The position numbers and the translations under genes are program-made. From Caldimonas caldifontis (GTDB taxonomy: Bacteria > Pseudomonadota > Gammaproteobacteria > Burkholderiales > Burkholderiaceae_C), in NCBI RefSeq assembly GCF_002930615.1, contig NZ_PSNX01000004.1:62001-126000 (forward strand): a stretch of DNA of 64,000 nucleotides, written 5' to 3'. Below, in pieces: positions 35,732 to 42,786 of this stretch. The notes beneath the pieces are model-generated. The model was not told the DNA's origin. It searched no databases and saw only the letters and a list, made by a program, of their open reading frames with translations. How positions within the stretch are numbered: the stretch's first letter is position 1; each line of letters starts with the position of its first letter.

Positions 35732-36460
35732 ATGGCCGAGGATCCGCGCCCCGATACCTACCGCGCCCTGCTGGAGCGCGGGCGCTGGTTCGCGTCGCTG
35801 CCGGCCGCGCACCGGGACGCGTTGCTGGCCCACGCCGTGCTGCGCCGCCTGCCGGCCGGGGCGATGCTGTTCCGCCGCGGCGACGACAACGCCGGCCTGT
35901 ATTGCGTGCTCGAGGGCGCGGTGCGCATTGGTGCGGCGGCGGTCGGCGACCGGGAGGCCATGCTCAGTGTGCTGGAGTCGCCACAGTGGTTCGGCGAGAT
36001 CGCCTGCCTGGATGGCGGGCCGCGCACCCACGATGCGCAGGCGCTGTCATCGGCCGCCGTGCTGCTGGTGCCCCGACCGGCGCTCGAACGCCTCGCCGCC
36101 CAGGACCCCTTGTGGTGGCGCTTCCTCGGCCAGTTGCTGGCCGAGAAGGTGAGGGCGCTTTTCGCCGGCCTGGAGGACCTGACCCAGCTCGGTGCCGCGG
36201 CGCGCATCGCGCGGCGGCTGCTGGGGCTGTCGCAGGGCCACGGCATGCTGGCCGAGGGCCTCGCGCACCGCACGGTGCCGGTGAACCAGGAGCAGCTGGG
36301 GGCCATGCTGTCGCTGTCGCGCCAGACCGTGAGCGAGGTGCTGCGCGACTTCGAGGCGCGTGGCTGGGTCCGGCGCCACTACCGTGCGGTGGAGCTGCTG
36401 GATTGGCAGGCCCTGGCGCAGGCTGTCACAAACGGCCGGGCTGGCCCGTCTGAGGGTTGA
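35732..36460 (+). CDS. Crp/Fnr-family transcription regulator
   Basis: A 242-residue regulator. An N-terminal cyclic-nucleotide-like beta-barrel (about 25-140: GAMLFRRGDDNAGLYCVLEGAVRIG, then WFGEIACLDGGPRTHDAQA) and a dimer helix lead to a winged helix-turn-helix (about 185-225: VNQEQLGAMLSLSRQTVSEVLRDFEARGWV). There is no N-terminal cysteine cluster, so it is not an FNR-type iron-sulfur sensor. The effector is unknown. ATG 35732 gives MAEDPRPDTY; the frame is open to 35621 but not conserved there. The divergent Mpo1-like gene is a possible target. Confidence 0.87.
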   Translation: MAEDPRPDTYRALLERGRWFASLPAAHRDALLAHAVLRRLPAGAMLFRRGDDNAGLYCVLEGAVRIGAAAVGDREAMLSVLESPQWFGEIACLDGGPRTHDAQALSSAAVLLVPRPALERLAAQDPLWWRFLGQLLAEKVRALFAGLEDLTQLGAAARIARRLLGLSQGHGMLAEGLAHRTVPVNQEQLGAMLSLSRQTVSEVLRDFEARGWVRRHYRAVELLDWQALAQAVTNGRAGPSEG

Positions 36461-36752
36461 ACCCCCCCCGCGTGGAGCCCCATGGATCAGCCGACGGAGC
36501 TGCTGATCGTGGAGTCAAAAAAATGCCTGGCTACCAGGTGGGCCGAACCCACCTTTGGCTGGCCAAAACGATCAAGGGCCGCAGCCCCGGATCGCCCCAC
36601 GATGACCGGCGTCTGGGCCCTGCAAGCGGCAGGGCGATGACTTGACCGCAGTATAAACACAAATGAGAATCGTTTGCAAATAATCCATGATCCCATGATG
36701 ACGCAGGGCCGCCCCGGCGCTTCGGGGCCTGATGGACAGAGGAGTGTCAGCC
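36461..36752. promoter_or_regulatory. Intergenic region with Fur-like box over a promoter
   Basis: A weak terminator-like stem AGGTGGG/CCCACCT (36536-36542 with 36548-36554) follows the Crp/Fnr gene. TTGACC (36642-36647) and GAGAAT (36665-36670), 17 bp apart, make a plausible sigma70 promoter. The stretch ACAAATGAGAATCGTTTGC (36659-36677) overlaps the -10 and matches a 19-bp Fur box at 12 positions, including the core AATGA-AATC-TT. Fur with iron would block this promoter. The assignment is by eye. Confidence 0.6.
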
Positions 36753-37094
36753 ATGGTCGAGGTGGGAACACTGGCGCAGGAGCACCGCGCTCTTGTGGCG
36801 TTATACGGGCAGGTGCAAACACGCTGCAGCGTGCAACTGCGGCAACAGGCCGCGCAGATCAAGAGTCTGCAGGCAGAGGTCGTGCGCCTGCGCGCAGCAT
36901 TGATCGTTCGGCAGACCGCGTTGGCATGGGCGCGCGAAGACCAGCGCATGCTGGATGCTGCGCTGTCGGGCCTGCGCAGGCGCATGGAGTTGAGCCGCCG
37001 CCTGGAAGTGCTGGTCGAGCGTGTGCAGGGCTGCGTGTCGGAACGTGTGCGCGGCTTCTGGACCCCTGCGGATCGGCCCAGCTCAAGCTGCTAG
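36753..37094 (+). CDS. Short coiled-coil protein resembling the N-terminal half of DUF2325 proteins
   Basis: A 113-residue cytosolic, helical protein: a coiled coil about 10-60 (LRQQAAQIKSLQAEVVRLRAAL) followed by VRQTALAWAREDQRMLDAAL and RRLEVLVERVQ. From memory, LRA-hydrophobic-VR-TALAWARED is the N-terminal signature of proteins that continue into a DUF2325 domain, found beside CobN-like genes. Here the protein stops before that domain and a riboswitch begins within 10 bp. ATG 36753 has AGAGGAG eight bases upstream. It is the first gene behind the Fur-like promoter. The function is unknown; scaffolding or regulation of the cassette is a guess. Confidence 0.65.
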   Translation: MVEVGTLAQEHRALVALYGQVQTRCSVQLRQQAAQIKSLQAEVVRLRAALIVRQTALAWAREDQRMLDAALSGLRRRMELSRRLEVLVERVQGCVSERVRGFWTPADRPSSSC

Positions 37095-37099
37095 GATGT

Positions 37100-37327
37100 A
37101 GGAGTTGGTGCTCGCGGCGCGGCTCACGTGTCGCAGTTCAACGGGAAGCTGGGGGATGAGGGCCTGCAGGCCCAGTCTAACCAGCGCTGCCCCCGCAACG
37201 GTAAGTGGACGAAGGACGCGCATCTCACCGCGCTCTTCCGCTTTCATCCTGCAAGCCACTGGTGATGTGTCGTCTGCATCACTGGGAAGGCGATGAAGGT
37301 TGCTTCCACCAGCCCGGATACCGGCCA
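37100..37327 (+). ncRNA. Cobalamin riboswitch
   Basis: Conserved blocks of the B12 aptamer appear in order: a GGTGC start at 37106-37110, AACGGGAAGCTGG, the B12 box GCTGCCCCCGCAACGGTAA, GCCACTG, CTGGGAAGGC, and the closing AGCCCGGATACCGGCC. Spacing fits an adenosylcobalamin-type element. Downstream, CGGTGA (37384-37389) can pair with TCACCG (37399-37404) next to the weak ribosome site of the DUF2796 gene, so control is probably at translation initiation. It should reduce expression of the downstream cassette when B12 is plentiful. Confidence 0.93.
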
Positions 37328-37413
37328 ACAAGGTGGCTCGGCGGTGACGCCGGGTCGTGAGGCTCATGCACCGTCGGGGAAGGCGGTGAGAGCGGTCTTC
37401 ACCGTGGATTGCC

Positions 37414-37956
37414 ATGTCTGAATTTCTCTCGCGCACGAGCGTCGCGCCGCGCCTGCGTGCCTGTGTTGCGCTGGTCGGTGCCAGCCTCATCTTCGTATCG
37501 GCCGCGCAGGCCCATGGTTCCCACAGCCATGGACATGGCGCCGTGCGGCTGATGATGGAAGGCGCCATCCTCTCAGCCACCTTCGACGTCCCGCTGGAGT
37601 CCTTCCTCGGCTACGACTACCCGCCGCAGGGGGCGGCCCAGGAGGAGGTATGGAGAGCTTTCACGAGAAGGCTCCAGAACCCGTCGAGCTGGCTGCAGCC
37701 GACGGCTGAAGCCAGCTGCCAGGCTGTGCGACACGAGGTTCATCCCGATCCGGCGACGTTGGATGCTAAGGCCGACATCCCCAACATCGTCTACCGCGCT
37801 GAGTTTCGCTGCGACCGACCCGAGGCCCTGAACGCGGTGTCCTTCACGGCATTTTTCGACCATCCGGGGTTGAAGCAACTGCGCGTGCAACTGGTGTCAC
37901 CCAAGGGGCGCAAGACCGTGACCGTACGCCCTCGCTTTCCGGCGCTGACATTCTGA
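37414..37956 (+). CDS. Secreted DUF2796 (ZrgA-like) metal-binding protein
   Basis: A 180-residue periplasmic protein. The signal peptide is cleaved after AQA (residues 31-33), leaving a mature N-terminus that starts with His34 in HGSHSHGHGAVRL, four histidines in eight residues. The DUF2796 core follows: MEGAILSATFDVPLESFLGYDYPP, CQAVRHEVHPD, YRAEFRCDRPEAL, VSFTAFFDHPGLKQLRVQLVSPKGRKTVTV. DUF2796 proteins are known as ZrgA, linked to zinc uptake in Vibrio. Here the B12 riboswitch upstream suggests cobalt or a tetrapyrrole-related metal instead; the metal is open. It is the first gene after the riboswitch, 11 bp before the ExbB-like gene. Confidence 0.82.
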   Translation: MSEFLSRTSVAPRLRACVALVGASLIFVSAAQAHGSHSHGHGAVRLMMEGAILSATFDVPLESFLGYDYPPQGAAQEEVWRAFTRRLQNPSSWLQPTAEASCQAVRHEVHPDPATLDAKADIPNIVYRAEFRCDRPEALNAVSFTAFFDHPGLKQLRVQLVSPKGRKTVTVRPRFPALTF

Positions 37957-37967
37957 AGGGGGGGACC

Positions 37968-38432
37968 ATGCTGGAGCTGGGTTTTCTGCACATCGTGCAG
38001 TGGTTGCTCACGCCGGTGCTGCTGCTGCTGGCGCTGGCCTTTGCCTATGCGCTGTGGATGTCGGGCGTGGTGATGATCGAGGCTTGGCAGCGCCGGCGCG
38101 TGCCGGGCTTCTCCCTGCTGCACGGGGTGGAATCGCTCACGCTGGAGGAGCTGGAACTGCAGGCCCTGGGGCGGATGGAGCCGCTGCGCCTGCTCAGCCG
38201 GGTCACCCCTATGCTAGGGCTGATTGCCACAATGATCCCGCTGGGGCCGGCCCTTCAGGAGGTGGCCAATGGACAGGGACAAGCCGCACTGTCGGTGTTC
38301 AGCGGTGCCTTCGCCGGTGTGGTGCTGGCGCTCACGGCGGCTTCGTTGGGCTTGGTGCTCTACTCGGCTCGTCGCCGCTGGCTGCTGGCCGAGTTGCTGG
38401 CGGTCCAGCGGGCGCGTGGGGGGAGGGCATGA
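37968..38432 (+). CDS. MotA/TolQ/ExbB-family proton-channel protein
   Basis: A 154-residue inner-membrane protein with three helices: about 7-40 (IVQWLLTPVLLLLALAFAYALWMSGVVMI), about 78-95, and about 110-140 (VFSGAFAGVVLALTAASLGLVLYSARRRW). The loop RVTPMLGLIATMIPLGPALQEVANG is the family signature. ExbB/TolQ/MotA proteins use the proton gradient to drive a partner. This short version pairs with the DUF2149 protein encoded next, whose start overlaps this stop as ATGA. GAAGGGGGGACC precedes the ATG. Confidence 0.85.
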   Translation: MLELGFLHIVQWLLTPVLLLLALAFAYALWMSGVVMIEAWQRRRVPGFSLLHGVESLTLEELELQALGRMEPLRLLSRVTPMLGLIATMIPLGPALQEVANGQGQAALSVFSGAFAGVVLALTAASLGLVLYSARRRWLLAELLAVQRARGGRA

Positions 38433-38755
38433 CCCTGAGACATCTCAAGGGGGTCGACGAGGAAGACGATGATCCGATGCTCTCGGCCATCAACCTCGTC
38501 GATGTGTTTCTGGTGTTGGTGGTAGCTCTCATGATCGCGGTCAGCGCGGTGCACCCGGGGGCGCCACTGGCTGACATCCAAGGGGTGGGGGAGATCGTGG
38601 TGCGCGAGGGCGAGCGTGAGGTGCGCCTGAAAGGCACGGGCACCCCAGGGGAAGGCGAGGGGGTGCGGGCGGGGGTGGCGTATCGCTTGCGCGACGGCAG
38701 CATCGTCTATGTGCCCGAGCAGGCTTCGGCTGCTTCAGGGGAGCCGGCTCGGTGA
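38429..38755 (+). CDS. DUF2149 (ExbD/TolR-like) membrane protein
   Basis: A 108-residue protein with an acidic cytoplasmic N-terminus (GVDEEDDDPMLSAINLVDVF), a single membrane helix (VFLVLVVALMIAVSAV, about 25-41) and a periplasmic domain. The DDDPM-x-NLVDVFLV start is the DUF2149 signature. The topology matches ExbD/TolR, which form the moving element of proton-driven complexes with ExbB/TolQ. It overlaps the previous gene (ATGA) and the CobN-like gene (GTGA), so four products are made as a coupled set. Confidence 0.83.
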   Translation: MTLRHLKGVDEEDDDPMLSAINLVDVFLVLVVALMIAVSAVHPGAPLADIQGVGEIVVREGEREVRLKGTGTPGEGEGVRAGVAYRLRDGSIVYVPEQASAASGEPAR

Positions 38756-41700
38756 AAGCCCTGCGTGCCTGTCGTTGGGCCGTGATGCTGGTGGCCGGAC
38801 TGATGTGGAGCTTGGTGCAGGCGCGCACGCTGCTGTGGGTTACGCTGGATGTCACGCCGGCCTCGCGCACAGCGCTGGTGGAGCGCATCGCCATGGAGCA
38901 AGGCTGGCAGGTGCACTGGCTCGACCATCCGTTGCAGGAGGAGCCGGCTTTGGTGACTGCCCGTCGTGAGGCCATGACTGCGGCTTTGTCCCGCGCGGAC
39001 ATGGTGTGGATCGATGCGCCGCATGTGACGGTGCACGCGAGGATTCAGCGGCAGTTCGGCGATTTGTTCGAGGCATACGATCGAAAGAAGCCTAACCGCG
39101 TGGTGTGGATTCTTCCGCCTGGTGTAGCGCTTGCCGACTCAGGCGGCGATGGGCTCGCACGCATGGTCACCTACCTGCGCGCCGGTGGCGCGGCCAACCT
39201 GCGCCACGCGATGCGTCTTGCCGAGGCCTGGGTAGCCTCCGGGCATTCGCAGGAGGCATTGGCCGCACTGGATCTGCCGCCGCCACAGGCCTGGCCCTCG
39301 AGCGGGATCTACCATCCTCGCGCCAGCGGCATCGTGCAGGATATCGCCGCCTTGCAACGAGTGATGCCTGAGATGCAGGGGCGTTCGTCCGTGGCGCTGT
39401 TGGTGCATCGGCATCACTTCATCGATGGGCAGACCGACTGGCTGGACCAGTGGCTGCAACTCTTCGAGGCCCAGGGCCTGTTCGCTTACGCCGTCTTCGG
39501 CCAGCAGCTTGATGCGCAGGGCTTGCGCGACTTGCTCCAAGCGGCACCACCGCGCGTGCTGGTGCTGCATCAGATCAGCTCTCATTCGGCAGCGTTGCAA
39601 TCGTTGTTTCAGGAATGGTCTGCACCGGTGTTGGCTACTCAACCCTATCGGCATGGCGACACGGCTGCCTGGGAAGCCGACCCCACTGGCTTGAAGCTCG
39701 CCGATGCGCCCTTCTATCTGGTGCAGCCCGAAGCCGCCGGGGCCATTGACCCCGTGGTGGTGACCGCACACGCCGACCGCGGCCGTCGCGTCGAGTTGAT
39801 CGAGCGCCAGGCCCGCTCGGTGGTGGGCAAGGCCCGACGACTCATCGCACTGAACGACACGCCCGCTGCCCACAAGCAACTTGTGGCTATGGTCTACAAC
39901 TACCCGCCAGGTGGCAGCAACTTCGGAGCTTCTTTCCTGAACGTGCCGCGCAGCCTGGAGATGGTGAGCGGCCGTCTGGCCGAGGCGGGCTACGACGTGC
40001 CCATCACACGGGAAGCCGAATGGATCGCGGGCCTGCGCCCGCTGATGCGCGCCTACTACCCCGGAGCGGACCTGACGGCGATGTTGCGCAACGATCAGGC
40101 GGCTGCATTGCCGGTGAAGGACTATCTGGGCTGGTGGCGCACGCTGCCCGAGGCAGTGCGTGAGCGCATCGCCGCACGCTGGGGTGAGCCGTCTGAGAGT
40201 CGTTACGTGGTGGACTGGCAGGGAGAGCCGGTGTTCGTGATCCCGCGCTTGCAGCGTGGCCGACTGGCGGTGTTGCCGCAGCCTCCCCGCGAAGAGACGC
40301 TGCGCCATGGCCAGAATCCTTTCATGCACCGCAGCCGCGAGCCGGTATCGCATCACTACCTGGCGGTGTACCTGTGGGCCCAGCGTGCCCATGCGCTGAT
40401 CCATTTTGGCACCCATGGCACCCAGGAGTGGGCGCCGGGCAAGTCGCGCGGGCTGGACGTGCTCGACGATGCGATGCTTCCGCTGGGCGATGTGCCCGTG
40501 GTCTATCCCTATATCGTCGACAACCTGGGGGAGGCCCTTACCGCCAAACGCCGCGGCCGCGCACTGCTGGTGAGCCACCGCACGCCGGTGCTTGCCACCA
40601 CGGGTTTGTCGCCAACGATGGCGTTGCTGCACGAACTGATGCACGACTGGGCCATGGCCGACCAAGGTCCGACGAAGCGGCAGATCGGCGAGCAACTGGT
40701 GGCCTTGATCGTCGAAGCCCGTCTGCACCATGACCTGAAGTGGACGGTCGAACAAGTGCGGGACCGGCTGGAGGAATTCCTGGAAGTGCTGCACCCCTGG
40801 CTGGACCAGATCGCTCACAGTAGCCAGCCGCGCGGGCTGGCCGTGTTTGGGCAAGCGCCCGATGAAGCTGCGCGGCGCCTGATGGTTTTACAGGCATTGC
40901 GCACACCGTTGCTCGACGCCCTGGGTGAGGACGTGGATGAGACCTTCCTCATCGATCACCGCCAGGTGGAAGCTTCGCGCCCGATGCGCTGGCTGGAGGT
41001 AGCCCTGAGCGATGTGCAGGCGGCCAGTGCACTGGATCTGCGCCCGACCCAGGCCGAGACGGCCGTGCCCAATCGCGCAGCCGTGCATGCCATCGATCGC
41101 GAGGCCTTGCGGCGGCTGGCTGAGCAAGCACAGGCTCTAGACCGCATCTATGCCGCCGAGAACGAGATCAATGGACTGCTGGCGGCCTTGGAAGGGCGCT
41201 TCGTGCCTGCTGCCTATGGGGGCGATCCGCTGCGCAACCCCGACAGCCTGCCCACTGGGCGCAACCTTACGGGTCTGGACCCGAGCCGCCTGCCCACACG
41301 CCAGGCCTACACCATGGCGCAACTGTTGTTCGATCAGTGGCTTGCGCAATGGCGCAAGTCGCACCCCGGCCGACCACCTCAGCGACTGGCCTTGTCACTG
41401 TGGGCCGGCGAAACACTGCGCCACCATGGCATCATGGAAGCGCAAGCGCTGGTCGCTTTGGGCGTGCGCCCGGTGTGGGATACCGCCGGGCGGCCCACGC
41501 GTGTGGAGCTTGTGCCGGCCGCAGAACTGGGGCGCCCGCGTGTGGATGTGCTGCTCAGCGTCACCGGTTCCTACCGCGACCAGTTCCCGGCGCTGATGGC
41601 GCTCGTCGATGAGGCGGTGGCCCTGGTGAGCCGAGCCGAACCGCAAGGTGTGGTGGCCCGCCACAGCCGCGAGGTGGCCGCGGAACTCGTCCGCCAGGGC

Positions 41701-42786
41701 GTGGCCCAGGAACAGGCGCAGCGGCTGGGACGTGCCCGTGTCTTCGGCAATGCCGTGGGCGACTATGGCACCGGCCTCAGCGAGGCCGTGCAGGACGACC
41801 GCCTGCGCCCGCACGACGAACGTCTGGGCGATCTGTTCTTGCACCGTATGGGCCACCCCTACCTTGAGGGGCTGCCGCTGGAGGATGTCGATGAAGCCGT
41901 GGGTGCCCTCGCGCTGGGCGCCCAGTTGCGCCGCACCGACGCGGCGATGCTGTCGCGTAGCTCGCACCTCTACGGCATGGTGAGCTCGGATGACCCTTTC
42001 CAGTACCTGGGTGGCCTGGCCGCTGCGGCCCGCCGGGTCGGGCGCGCTGACGCGCTGCTGCTCTTTGTCAGCCAGTTGCACAACGCCGATGAACCCTATG
42101 CGCAGACCGCGACAGAGAGCGTGGCGCAGGAGATGCAGTCTCGCTACTTGCATCCCGGTTGGGTGGCGGCACAGAAGGACGAGGGGTATGCCGGCACATT
42201 GCAAGTGCTCAAGGCGGTGCAGTTCACCTGGGGCTGGCAAAGTGTGGTGGACGACGTGGTGCGTGCCGACCATTGGCAGAGCCTGCATGAGGTGTATGTG
42301 AAGGACCGCCTGGGCCTGGGTGTGGGCGAGTGGCTGCGCAGCCATCCGCAAGCCTATGCGCAAGTGGTGGAACGCCTGATCCAGGCCCAGCGCCACGGCC
42401 ACTGGGCGCCGGATGCCGCCACGCAGCGCGAACTGGCCAGGCTCTACCGCGACCTGACGCAGGAGGCTCCGCTCGCGCAGGAACTGGCGAGCGTGCGCAT
42501 GTGGGTAGACCATACCTTGGCTTCGGCGGCTGCCGAGGCGTCGAGGGGCCAGCCCCTCGCGCAGGACACCGTTCAGATACCGCCCGTCCTTGAATCAGGC
42601 GCTGAGCCCAGCCCTGCGCCCCCACCGGCCGCCCCCAACCCCTGGGTGCCGGTGCGGGGCGAACGCCTGCAACCGGCACCTGCGCAGCAGGCCGACGCCC
42701 TGCTGGCCGCTATGGCGCTGATGCTGGTGCTGGCCCTGGTCCTGGGAGGAGCGGTGGACCAATGGCGGCGCGGCGCCAGACCGTGA
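38752..42786 (+). CDS. Membrane-anchored, exported CobN-like chelatase
   Basis: A 1344-residue homologue of the large subunit of cobaltochelatase/magnesium chelatase. Family motifs: MVYNYPPGGSNFGASFLNVP (about 380), HFGTHGTQEWAPGKSRGLD (about 550), LSLWAGETLRHHGI (about 880), VTGSYRDQFPALM, RVFGNAVGDYGTGLSEAV (about 1000), SQLHNADEPYA and LQVLKAVQFTWGW. Unlike cytosolic CobN it has a signal peptide (ends near VQA at 22-24) and a C-terminal anchor (ALLAAMALMLVLALVLGGAVDQW, about 1314-1336), so the catalytic body should be periplasmic. No CobS/CobT or ChlI/ChlD ATPase is near. The ExbB/DUF2149 pair could supply energy. Metal insertion or removal on corrinoids or hemes is inferred; the direction is unknown. 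GTG 38752 overlaps the previous TGA. Confidence 0.87.
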   Translation: MKALRACRWAVMLVAGLMWSLVQARTLLWVTLDVTPASRTALVERIAMEQGWQVHWLDHPLQEEPALVTARREAMTAALSRADMVWIDAPHVTVHARIQRQFGDLFEAYDRKKPNRVVWILPPGVALADSGGDGLARMVTYLRAGGAANLRHAMRLAEAWVASGHSQEALAALDLPPPQAWPSSGIYHPRASGIVQDIAALQRVMPEMQGRSSVALLVHRHHFIDGQTDWLDQWLQLFEAQGLFAYAVFGQQLDAQGLRDLLQAAPPRVLVLHQISSHSAALQSLFQEWSAPVLATQPYRHGDTAAWEADPTGLKLADAPFYLVQPEAAGAIDPVVVTAHADRGRRVELIERQARSVVGKARRLIALNDTPAAHKQLVAMVYNYPPGGSNFGASFLNVPRSLEMVSGRLAEAGYDVPITREAEWIAGLRPLMRAYYPGADLTAMLRNDQAAALPVKDYLGWWRTLPEAVRERIAARWGEPSESRYVVDWQGEPVFVIPRLQRGRLAVLPQPPREETLRHGQNPFMHRSREPVSHHYLAVYLWAQRAHALIHFGTHGTQEWAPGKSRGLDVLDDAMLPLGDVPVVYPYIVDNLGEALTAKRRGRALLVSHRTPVLATTGLSPTMALLHELMHDWAMADQGPTKRQIGEQLVALIVEARLHHDLKWTVEQVRDRLEEFLEVLHPWLDQIAHSSQPRGLAVFGQAPDEAARRLMVLQALRTPLLDALGEDVDETFLIDHRQVEASRPMRWLEVALSDVQAASALDLRPTQAETAVPNRAAVHAIDREALRRLAEQAQALDRIYAAENEINGLLAALEGRFVPAAYGGDPLRNPDSLPTGRNLTGLDPSRLPTRQAYTMAQLLFDQWLAQWRKSHPGRPPQRLALSLWAGETLRHHGIMEAQALVALGVRPVWDTAGRPTRVELVPAAELGRPRVDVLLSVTGSYRDQFPALMALVDEAVALVSRAEPQGVVARHSREVAAELVRQGVAQEQAQRLGRARVFGNAVGDYGTGLSEAVQDDRLRPHDERLGDLFLHRMGHPYLEGLPLEDVDEAVGALALGAQLRRTDAAMLSRSSHLYGMVSSDDPFQYLGGLAAAARRVGRADALLLFVSQLHNADEPYAQTATESVAQEMQSRYLHPGWVAAQKDEGYAGTLQVLKAVQFTWGWQSVVDDVVRADHWQSLHEVYVKDRLGLGVGEWLRSHPQAYAQVVERLIQAQRHGHWAPDAATQRELARLYRDLTQEAPLAQELASVRMWVDHTLASAAAEASRGQPLAQDTVQIPPVLESGAEPSPAPPPAAPNPWVPVRGERLQPAPAQQADALLAAMALMLVLALVLGGAVDQWRRGARP

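Follow-up and report, generated by a model that had tools for sequence, protein, structure and literature searches.

A predicted Fur-controlled small RNA gene next to a cobalamin riboswitch operon in Caldimonas caldifontis

Whether iron and vitamin B12 act on one and the same transcript is the question raised by a locus of Caldimonas caldifontis in which a Fur-like box, a small gene related to DUF2325-type proteins, a cobalamin riboswitch and an operon of the tetrapyrrole-chelatase type (zrgA-exbB-DUF2149-btuS) follow one another. The locus was analyzed within a 64,000-nucleotide (nt) stretch of contig NZ_PSNX01000004.1 (positions 62,001–126,000; hereafter the window, whose own numbering is used throughout), for which the original prediction was dual control of a single rightward transcript. 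The side-by-side arrangement of Fur-like operator, complete riboswitch and chelatase operon stood, and the order is the same in C. manganoxidans; the box, however, overlaps the promoter of a predicted small RNA on the minus strand, and this promoter recurs with the box in other genera. Sequence comparison makes it quite probable that the Fur-like box is the operator of this leftward small RNA (and probably also of the DUF2325-like gene), that the riboswitch is a unit of its own starting near 37104, and that iron and B12 act on neighboring, mostly separate transcription units.

A scan of positions 36000–38000 for sigma-70-like promoters, in which shuffled sequences averaged 0.2 sites, revealed one site on each strand. 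The single rightward site is the TTGACC-17-GAGAAT that had been claimed; it is present at 36642–36670 on the plus strand with 9 of 12 consensus matches, and its spacer is 18 nt in C. manganoxidans. The second site lies on the minus strand (TTGCAA-18-TATACT, 36679–36650, likewise 9 of 12 matches), with its −35 element TTGCAA at 36674–36679 inside the Fur-like box and its −10 element TATACT at 36650–36655, 6 nt from the box. The box had been rightly described as overlapping a promoter, but with coordinates 3 bp off (36659–36677 given, 36662–36680 found, no strand assigned), and it spans the −35 element and most of the spacer of the minus-strand promoter.

Alignment of the two Caldimonas loci revealed the best conserved stretch before the riboswitch, which holds this leftward promoter and the sequence behind it: non-coding positions 36516–36685 are identical at 152 of 170 sites, compared with 39/67 in the leader of the small gene, 237/339 in the small open reading frame (ORF), 191/240 in the riboswitch and 36/36 around P13, a presumed hairpin behind the riboswitch aptamer. 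BLASTN with this stretch against 399 genomes of the family gave matches in many genera over a common span (query 86–173) at 70–76% identity, the best match outside the genus having an E value of 8.2e-10. These matches preceded the building of a covariance model (R1, 93 positions) from 25 sequences, the window being one of them; R1 marks a conserved module at 36518–36609 on the minus strand (77.2 bits). At an E threshold of 0.01, R1 recovered the module, a predicted RNA without an Rfam match, from 106 of these 399 genomes, two of them with E values of just 0.002–0.004. In the alignment of the 25 sequences, TCATCGTGGGGCGA is invariant and GCCAGCCA...AGCCAGGC, with a T-run, is nearly so; the UCAUCGUGGGGCGA stretch (36592–36605, minus strand), also invariant, is presumed to be the target-pairing region, and its last bases double as the first strand of helix 1.

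The structure of the module was examined by folding and by covariation. A terminator hairpin, GGCCAGCC...GGUAGCCAGGC followed by a U-run (36525–36564, minus strand), was found by the terminator scan and in the folds and corresponds to helices 2 and 3 of the covariation analysis; the simple terminator scan alone was weak, with 3 found against 1.1 expected. A 5' hairpin, GCCCUGC...GCAGGGC (36617–36635, minus strand), folded in both Caldimonas species, and the fold z of the small RNA was −2.49. Among 66 matches, 93.4% of cells pair and changes on both sides occur at 13 of 16 pairs; the covariation score was 0.310 against 0.136 in shuffles, and none of 500 shuffles was as high in any of these values, in an alignment that was fitted to the model and so favors its structure. 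No Rfam family matched the small RNA above its cut-off, and at a lax threshold the sole bacterial small-RNA family was P33 (12.8 bits, E 9.9, cut-off 45). These comparisons are best explained by a small RNA gene of ~127 nt on the minus strand (36517–36643; 5' end ~36643, 3' end in the U-run 36523–36517), Fur-controlled in prediction, not annotated before and widely conserved.

We then compared the places in which the module occurs. Of 138 covariance-model matches, the 120 whose DNA was listed could be placed and 18 were left out; the hemP class was assigned by a pattern on the translated upstream end, an earlier and narrower pattern having given just 52. A hemP-type ORF (..GKLILTK) precedes the module in 89 of the 120, its stop codon often overlapped by the module; the other 31 lie elsewhere. 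At least 12 of 19 matches to the Escherichia coli Fur consensus were found in 20 of the 31 upstream regions without hemP, but in none of the 89 hemP-linked ones and in 20 of 620 shuffles. All 30 boxed stand-alone copies, both Caldimonas copies included, exhibited a Fur-like box followed after 4–6 nt by TAnnnT, and the gap is 6 nt in 18 of them, the window's among these. Among the 31, one copy (L115) lies directly after an ORF ending in LTK and has no box, and is probably a decayed hemP case; two others (L186 and L187, 35–38 bits) are closely followed by a DUF2325-like ORF in the same orientation. Contig C28 carries the window copy and C12 the hemP of the same genome, so the copy is not downstream of hemP, and that hemP carries no module at its 3' end. 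R1 gave one match in the window genome (G000) and one in C. manganoxidans (G005). Plasmid searches for hemP and the module returned one record with both, Variovorax paradoxus CP063167.1, in which the module directly follows hemP.

A 19-bp Fur weight matrix was trained on 28 promoters of non-hemP module copies from other genomes, with L115 and both Caldimonas copies left out, and it gives its own 28 training sites high scores by construction. With this matrix the box at 36662–36680 ranked first over both strands of the whole window, with 21.1 bits when read on the minus strand and 16.4 bits when read on the plus strand; the runner-up among non-overlapping sites scored 8.3 bits. The C. manganoxidans box, outside the training set, scored 21.7 bits, and the site before hemP of the window's own genome 29.8 bits. 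The site thus stands above background as a motif, and Fur is predicted to bind it.

The riboswitch was examined for a start of its own. A complete cobalamin riboswitch at the stop of the small gene, as originally described, was confirmed: the RF00174 aptamer lies at 37089–37343 on the plus strand, overlapping the stop, and matches over the full length of the model (1–189; 64.3 bits, E 1.4e-13, cut-off 31.5 bits), with a proposed RNA start at 37104. A proposed −10 element, TAGGAT (37092–37097, plus strand), ends 6 nt before GTTGGT (37104), and C. manganoxidans has TAGGAT at the same gap of 6 before GTCGGT. We read 49 riboswitches of the family and dropped one without the anchor; TAnnnT ends 5–8 nt before GTTGGT in 46 of the remaining 48, the failures being L313 (doubtful anchor) and L297 (gap of 9). 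Other 4-nt bins before GTTGGT contained 0–3 TAnnnT each, except for 14 at a gap of 30–33, an excess that we read as a −35 element of the TTGTAGGGT type. Among the 12 bases before the start, those conserved between the window and C. manganoxidans are the six of TAGGAT, and coding does not account for this, because TAG is the stop codon in the window but the C. manganoxidans gene stops with TGA and has its TAGGAT after it. A −10-like hexamer at the place that is standard for this riboswitch type indicates that the riboswitch most likely has its own promoter and that its transcript probably starts near 37104. This prediction disagrees with the claim that iron sets the transcription of the chelatase genes; a rival transcript start at 37094–37100 had been named as fatal to the original prediction, and the start predicted here lies close to that interval.

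How the riboswitch would act was considered from its 3' side. No terminator had been expected between the small gene and the riboswitch, and indeed a scan of 36000–38000 found no terminator-like site on the plus strand; since no terminator was found, we infer translational control, by masking of GGGGAAGG. Cobalamin riboswitches form a kissing-loop pairing. The presumed P13 hairpin (37369–37388, plus strand; CACCGUC-GGGGAA-GGCGGUG) carries in its loop GGGGAA, the kissing-loop partner and likely ribosome-binding sequence; it folds in an 87-nt fragment of the window and is identical in C. manganoxidans, while the two species agree at 7 of the 18 nt that precede the ATG. GGGGAA occurs at a like place in seven of eight riboswitches read, with GGGGAT in L037. 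The window copy is therefore like other RF00174 riboswitches in its full length, in GGGGAA after the aptamer and in the −10-like hexamer at the standard distance, but unlike them it lies directly behind a DUF2325-like gene and beside a Fur-like operator. As a separate observation, GGGGAAGG lies just before a GTG at 37386 (within 37376–37421) from which a short ORF runs to a stop overlapping the start of zrgA at 37414; in C. manganoxidans the same GTG is, by eye, in frame with zrgA, and it is possibly a true start or a sign of translational coupling.

The small gene between box and riboswitch (36753–37094, plus strand) corresponds to the N-terminal part of DUF2325-type genes, and its product lacks the DUF2325 domain. 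Its protein is 65% identical in C. manganoxidans, with 31, 21 and 49 differences at codon positions 1, 2 and 3 over 112 codons. Across the family, 95 of 250 genomes encode longer proteins whose N-terminal region it matches, with a best E of 1.4e-33 outside the genus; among 17 relatives read, most of ~230–290 amino acids (aa), a C-terminal QTGC-type motif is present in 14 and absent in 3, and DUF2325 (PF10087) was matched by all three relatives tried. The window protein did not match PF10087 in Pfam, and its best match in Pfam and NCBIfam (E 0.0061) was below the cut-off; it stops before the domain, as does the C. manganoxidans protein, judged by its end. Around the 120 placed module matches, many with just 600 bases of flank, we found 11 DUF2325-like ORFs, 9 of them divergent with a Fur-like box between and 2 on the same strand. 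The divergent cases fall in three genera: g113 (G120, G221, G295, G357, G414), g21 (G179, G330) and Caldimonas (G000, G005). This recurrence suggests that the small RNA and the divergent DUF2325-like gene probably share one Fur site, and makes rightward Fur control of the latter plausible.

We propose the following model, built on what sequence comparison established: the module, the geometry of box and −10 element, the riboswitch and the place of its −10-like hexamer. When iron is present, Fur would occupy 36662–36680 and silence the leftward promoter; without iron, the ~127-nt RNA would be made and would pair through UCAUCGUGGGG with mRNAs, as RNAs of the RyhB, PrrF and BrrF kind do. The divergent DUF2325-like gene would probably be repressed through the same box, at its rightward promoter. 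For the riboswitch, a separate transcript most likely begins at ~37104 from the −10 element at 37092–37097, and bound cobalamin would shut translation of zrgA-exbB-DUF2149-btuS, the GGGGAA loop pairing with CCCCC of the aptamer. Fur binding, transcription, the direction of use, the targets and the translational mode are thus predicted parts of the model. If it holds, the lesson of the locus is that a good Fur box before a riboswitch operon need not control that operon.

Several points weigh against this model. No −35 element is recognizable before the riboswitch, TAGGAT agrees with the consensus at 4 of 6 positions, and inspection by eye showed this exact hexamer in none of the 48 compared riboswitches. 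P13 is absent from the best fold of the C. manganoxidans fragment and from that of the whole riboswitch, as computed by a folding program that does not model kissing loops. The window box agrees with the E. coli Fur consensus at 11 of 19 positions, a value reached by many shuffles, and the training promoters of the matrix, several of which come from one genus, are not independent and are all predicted Fur sites. BLASTN found the stand-alone RNA in two of nine genomes of the genus; three others (G001, G003 and G008) gave weak hemP-linked matches (34.8–38.1 bits), and G002, G004, G006 and G007 gave no BLASTN match. Each of the five g113 genomes in which a DUF2325 gene is divergent also shows TTGACG-17-GAGAAT, by eye, on the rightward strand, so that the rightward promoter may be real and may read through; this recurrence is not independent evidence, because the site shares bases with the box and with the 5' end of the small RNA. 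The model is also deduced from sequence throughout, Fur binding and expression being predicted.

The alternative that survives best is that the riboswitch has its own promoter and in addition receives read-through from the Fur-controlled rightward promoter during iron starvation, so that both signals matter for the btuS operon. The nine genomes in which divergent DUF2325-like ORFs share the box, the lack of a rightward terminator-like site between small gene and riboswitch, and a small gene that is missing its C-terminal domain and stops at the beginning of the riboswitch unit are consistent with it, but appreciable read-through is a supposition, and we regard this mixed input as possible rather than expected. 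We consider unlikely the single rightward transcript of the original prediction, running from the Fur-controlled promoter through small gene and riboswitch with iron setting transcription and B12 translation of the chelatase genes. The lone rightward sigma-70-like site, the scan without rightward terminator-like sites in 36000–38000, the order conserved in C. manganoxidans and the TTGACG-17-GAGAAT of the five g113 genomes speak for it; against it stand the −10-like TAGGAT at the standard riboswitch place (46/48), the poorly conserved leader of the small gene (39/67), the 18-nt promoter spacer in C. manganoxidans, and the other btuS loci.

Conservation of both sites at such loci had been named as a check of the original prediction. 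Inspection of 11 other btuS loci (L033–L043; more distant CobN matches, L015–L022 and others, were left out) revealed box and riboswitch together only in L033, that of C. manganoxidans, which makes the window an exception among btuS loci; its box is accounted for by the small RNA. In L035–L039 the riboswitch is present and no box exceeds 10.4 bits; L034 lacks both elements; L040–L043 lack the riboswitch, and their boxes of 20.8–28.9 bits lie 2.6–5.7 kb ahead of btuS. Compared with the window protein, identity is 59–64% for L034–L039 (60% for L034) and 41–43% for L040–L043. The btuS loci of the family thus appear to be of two kinds, one with a riboswitch and without a Fur-like box, the other with a Fur-like box some kb upstream and without a riboswitch; in some of L040–L043 a TonB-receptor-like ORF lies, by eye, between box and btuS.

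That there is no small RNA, the conserved stretch being a DNA element or bidirectional terminator and the minus-strand promoter an artefact of the Fur box, whose palindrome can give rise to promoter-like hexamers on both strands, is very improbable even for an RNA that in this organism is predicted from sequence, given the base-pair covariation, the terminator with its U-run, the constant geometry of box and −10 element and the occurrence of the module in a second setting, at hemP.

Returning to the preferred model, the small RNA resembles a known RNA in habit. BrrF of Burkholderia cenocepacia (formerly ncS63) is reported (PMC7377471) as a 126-nt RNA of iron starvation that is processed from hemP mRNA, lies downstream of hemP in every case, has no Fur box immediately before it and was not found outside Burkholderiales; acnA, fumA, sdhA, sdhC, sodB and katB are down in iron depletion in a BrrF-dependent manner. 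The family described here is like BrrF in that 89 of 120 placed matches follow a hemP-type ORF, but the window copy, unlike BrrF as there described, lies on a contig without hemP and has its own Fur-like box and promoter. Judging by titles and the opening lines of abstracts, a range that leaves papers on DUF2325 and iron aside, BrrF has been described and a stand-alone form was not found.

With some reserve, we lean towards an iron-starvation small RNA family, not described before, with two interchangeable settings: as the 3' tail of hemP mRNA, or as a free gene that has its own Fur box and in some genera lies divergent to a DUF2325 gene. Two Caldimonas species would have kept the free copy, with no second copy found and the hemP of the window species without one; the DUF2325 partner would have been cut short and would abut the B12-riboswitch operon for a (de)chelatase of the heme/cobalamin type, which places one Fur site between an iron-sparing RNA and a tetrapyrrole-metal operon. 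If true, a family with both hemP-linked and free, Fur-boxed members would show how the tail of an mRNA becomes a separate gene.

Iron-sparing small RNAs of the RyhB/PrrF kind end in an intrinsic terminator. At the sequence level the window RNA is like them in being structured, in its intrinsic terminator and in a promoter of its own overlapped by a Fur-like box, but unlike them it neither reaches nor nears any Rfam cut-off. Tandem module copies, 118–164 nt from start to start, occur in G118, G412, G293, G219 and G355 and recall prrF1 and prrF2, which are tandem genes. An order-level search with R1 matched 10 of 399 genomes, 8 of them in the window's family and 2 weakly (E 0.004–0.005). With filters off, 29 hemP loci outside the family (the 30th of the set lies inside) gave 9 weak R1 matches, the best at 24.3 bits. 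At 21 of these 29 loci (set L223–L252) two GCCAGCC at least 12 nt apart lie at most 150 nt past the hemP stop; the pair resembles the terminator half of the module, part of which may therefore reflect a wider feature of hemP 3' ends.

Candidate targets of the small RNA were sought with CCCCACGATG. The genome has this sequence at 27 places, the small RNA gene included, and among the remaining 26 one overlaps the start of an Fe-S-like ORF. At this place, L326, CCCCACG is complementary to the invariant stretch of the small RNA and immediately precedes the ATG of an ORF that begins with MKTLICNCNRTMPLD and by eye resembles an Fe-S protein gene; we regard it as a candidate target and a lead. No other place in this search had, by eye, the look of a genuine start of a gene related to iron, and no target is claimed.

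The operon behind the riboswitch comprises genes on the plus strand for a ZrgA-family protein (37414–37956; PF10986, E 4.8e-29), a MotA/TolQ/ExbB-like protein (37968–38432; a weak Pfam match below the cut-off, 14.4 of 22.9 bits), a DUF2149 protein (38426–38755; PF09919, E 1.7e-12) and a CobN-like chelatase of 1344 aa (38752–42786; PF02514, E 3.3e-256). C. manganoxidans keeps the order small ORF, riboswitch, zrgA, exbB, DUF2149, btuS. The chelatase is called BtuS/HmuS-type because of its neighbors and of an export signal and C-terminal membrane anchor seen by eye. The reports on BtuS (PMC6460266) and the HmuS de-chelatase (PMC12583661) describe this kind of chelatase, and the window protein is like theirs in being CobN-like and encoded with MotA/TolQ/ExbB-like and DUF2149 genes. 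It differs in being filed as cobaltochelatase subunit CobN by NCBIfam (NF004644, above the cut-off) and in having CobN as its best solved relative (7c6o, E 8.1e-95), followed by HmuS (9d26, E 2.2e-91). The phmmer match to 9d26 starts at chain residue 283, leaving the head domain (HmuS Met-79, His-254 and the Met-rich insertion) outside the alignment.

The window genome (G000, 3.64 Mb in 33 contigs) contains one further cobalamin riboswitch, which precedes a BtuB-like receptor gene and transport and cob genes, named as read from their sequences. About 5 kb from this second riboswitch lies a fluoride riboswitch (RF01734, L044:16647–16715, 51.9 bits).
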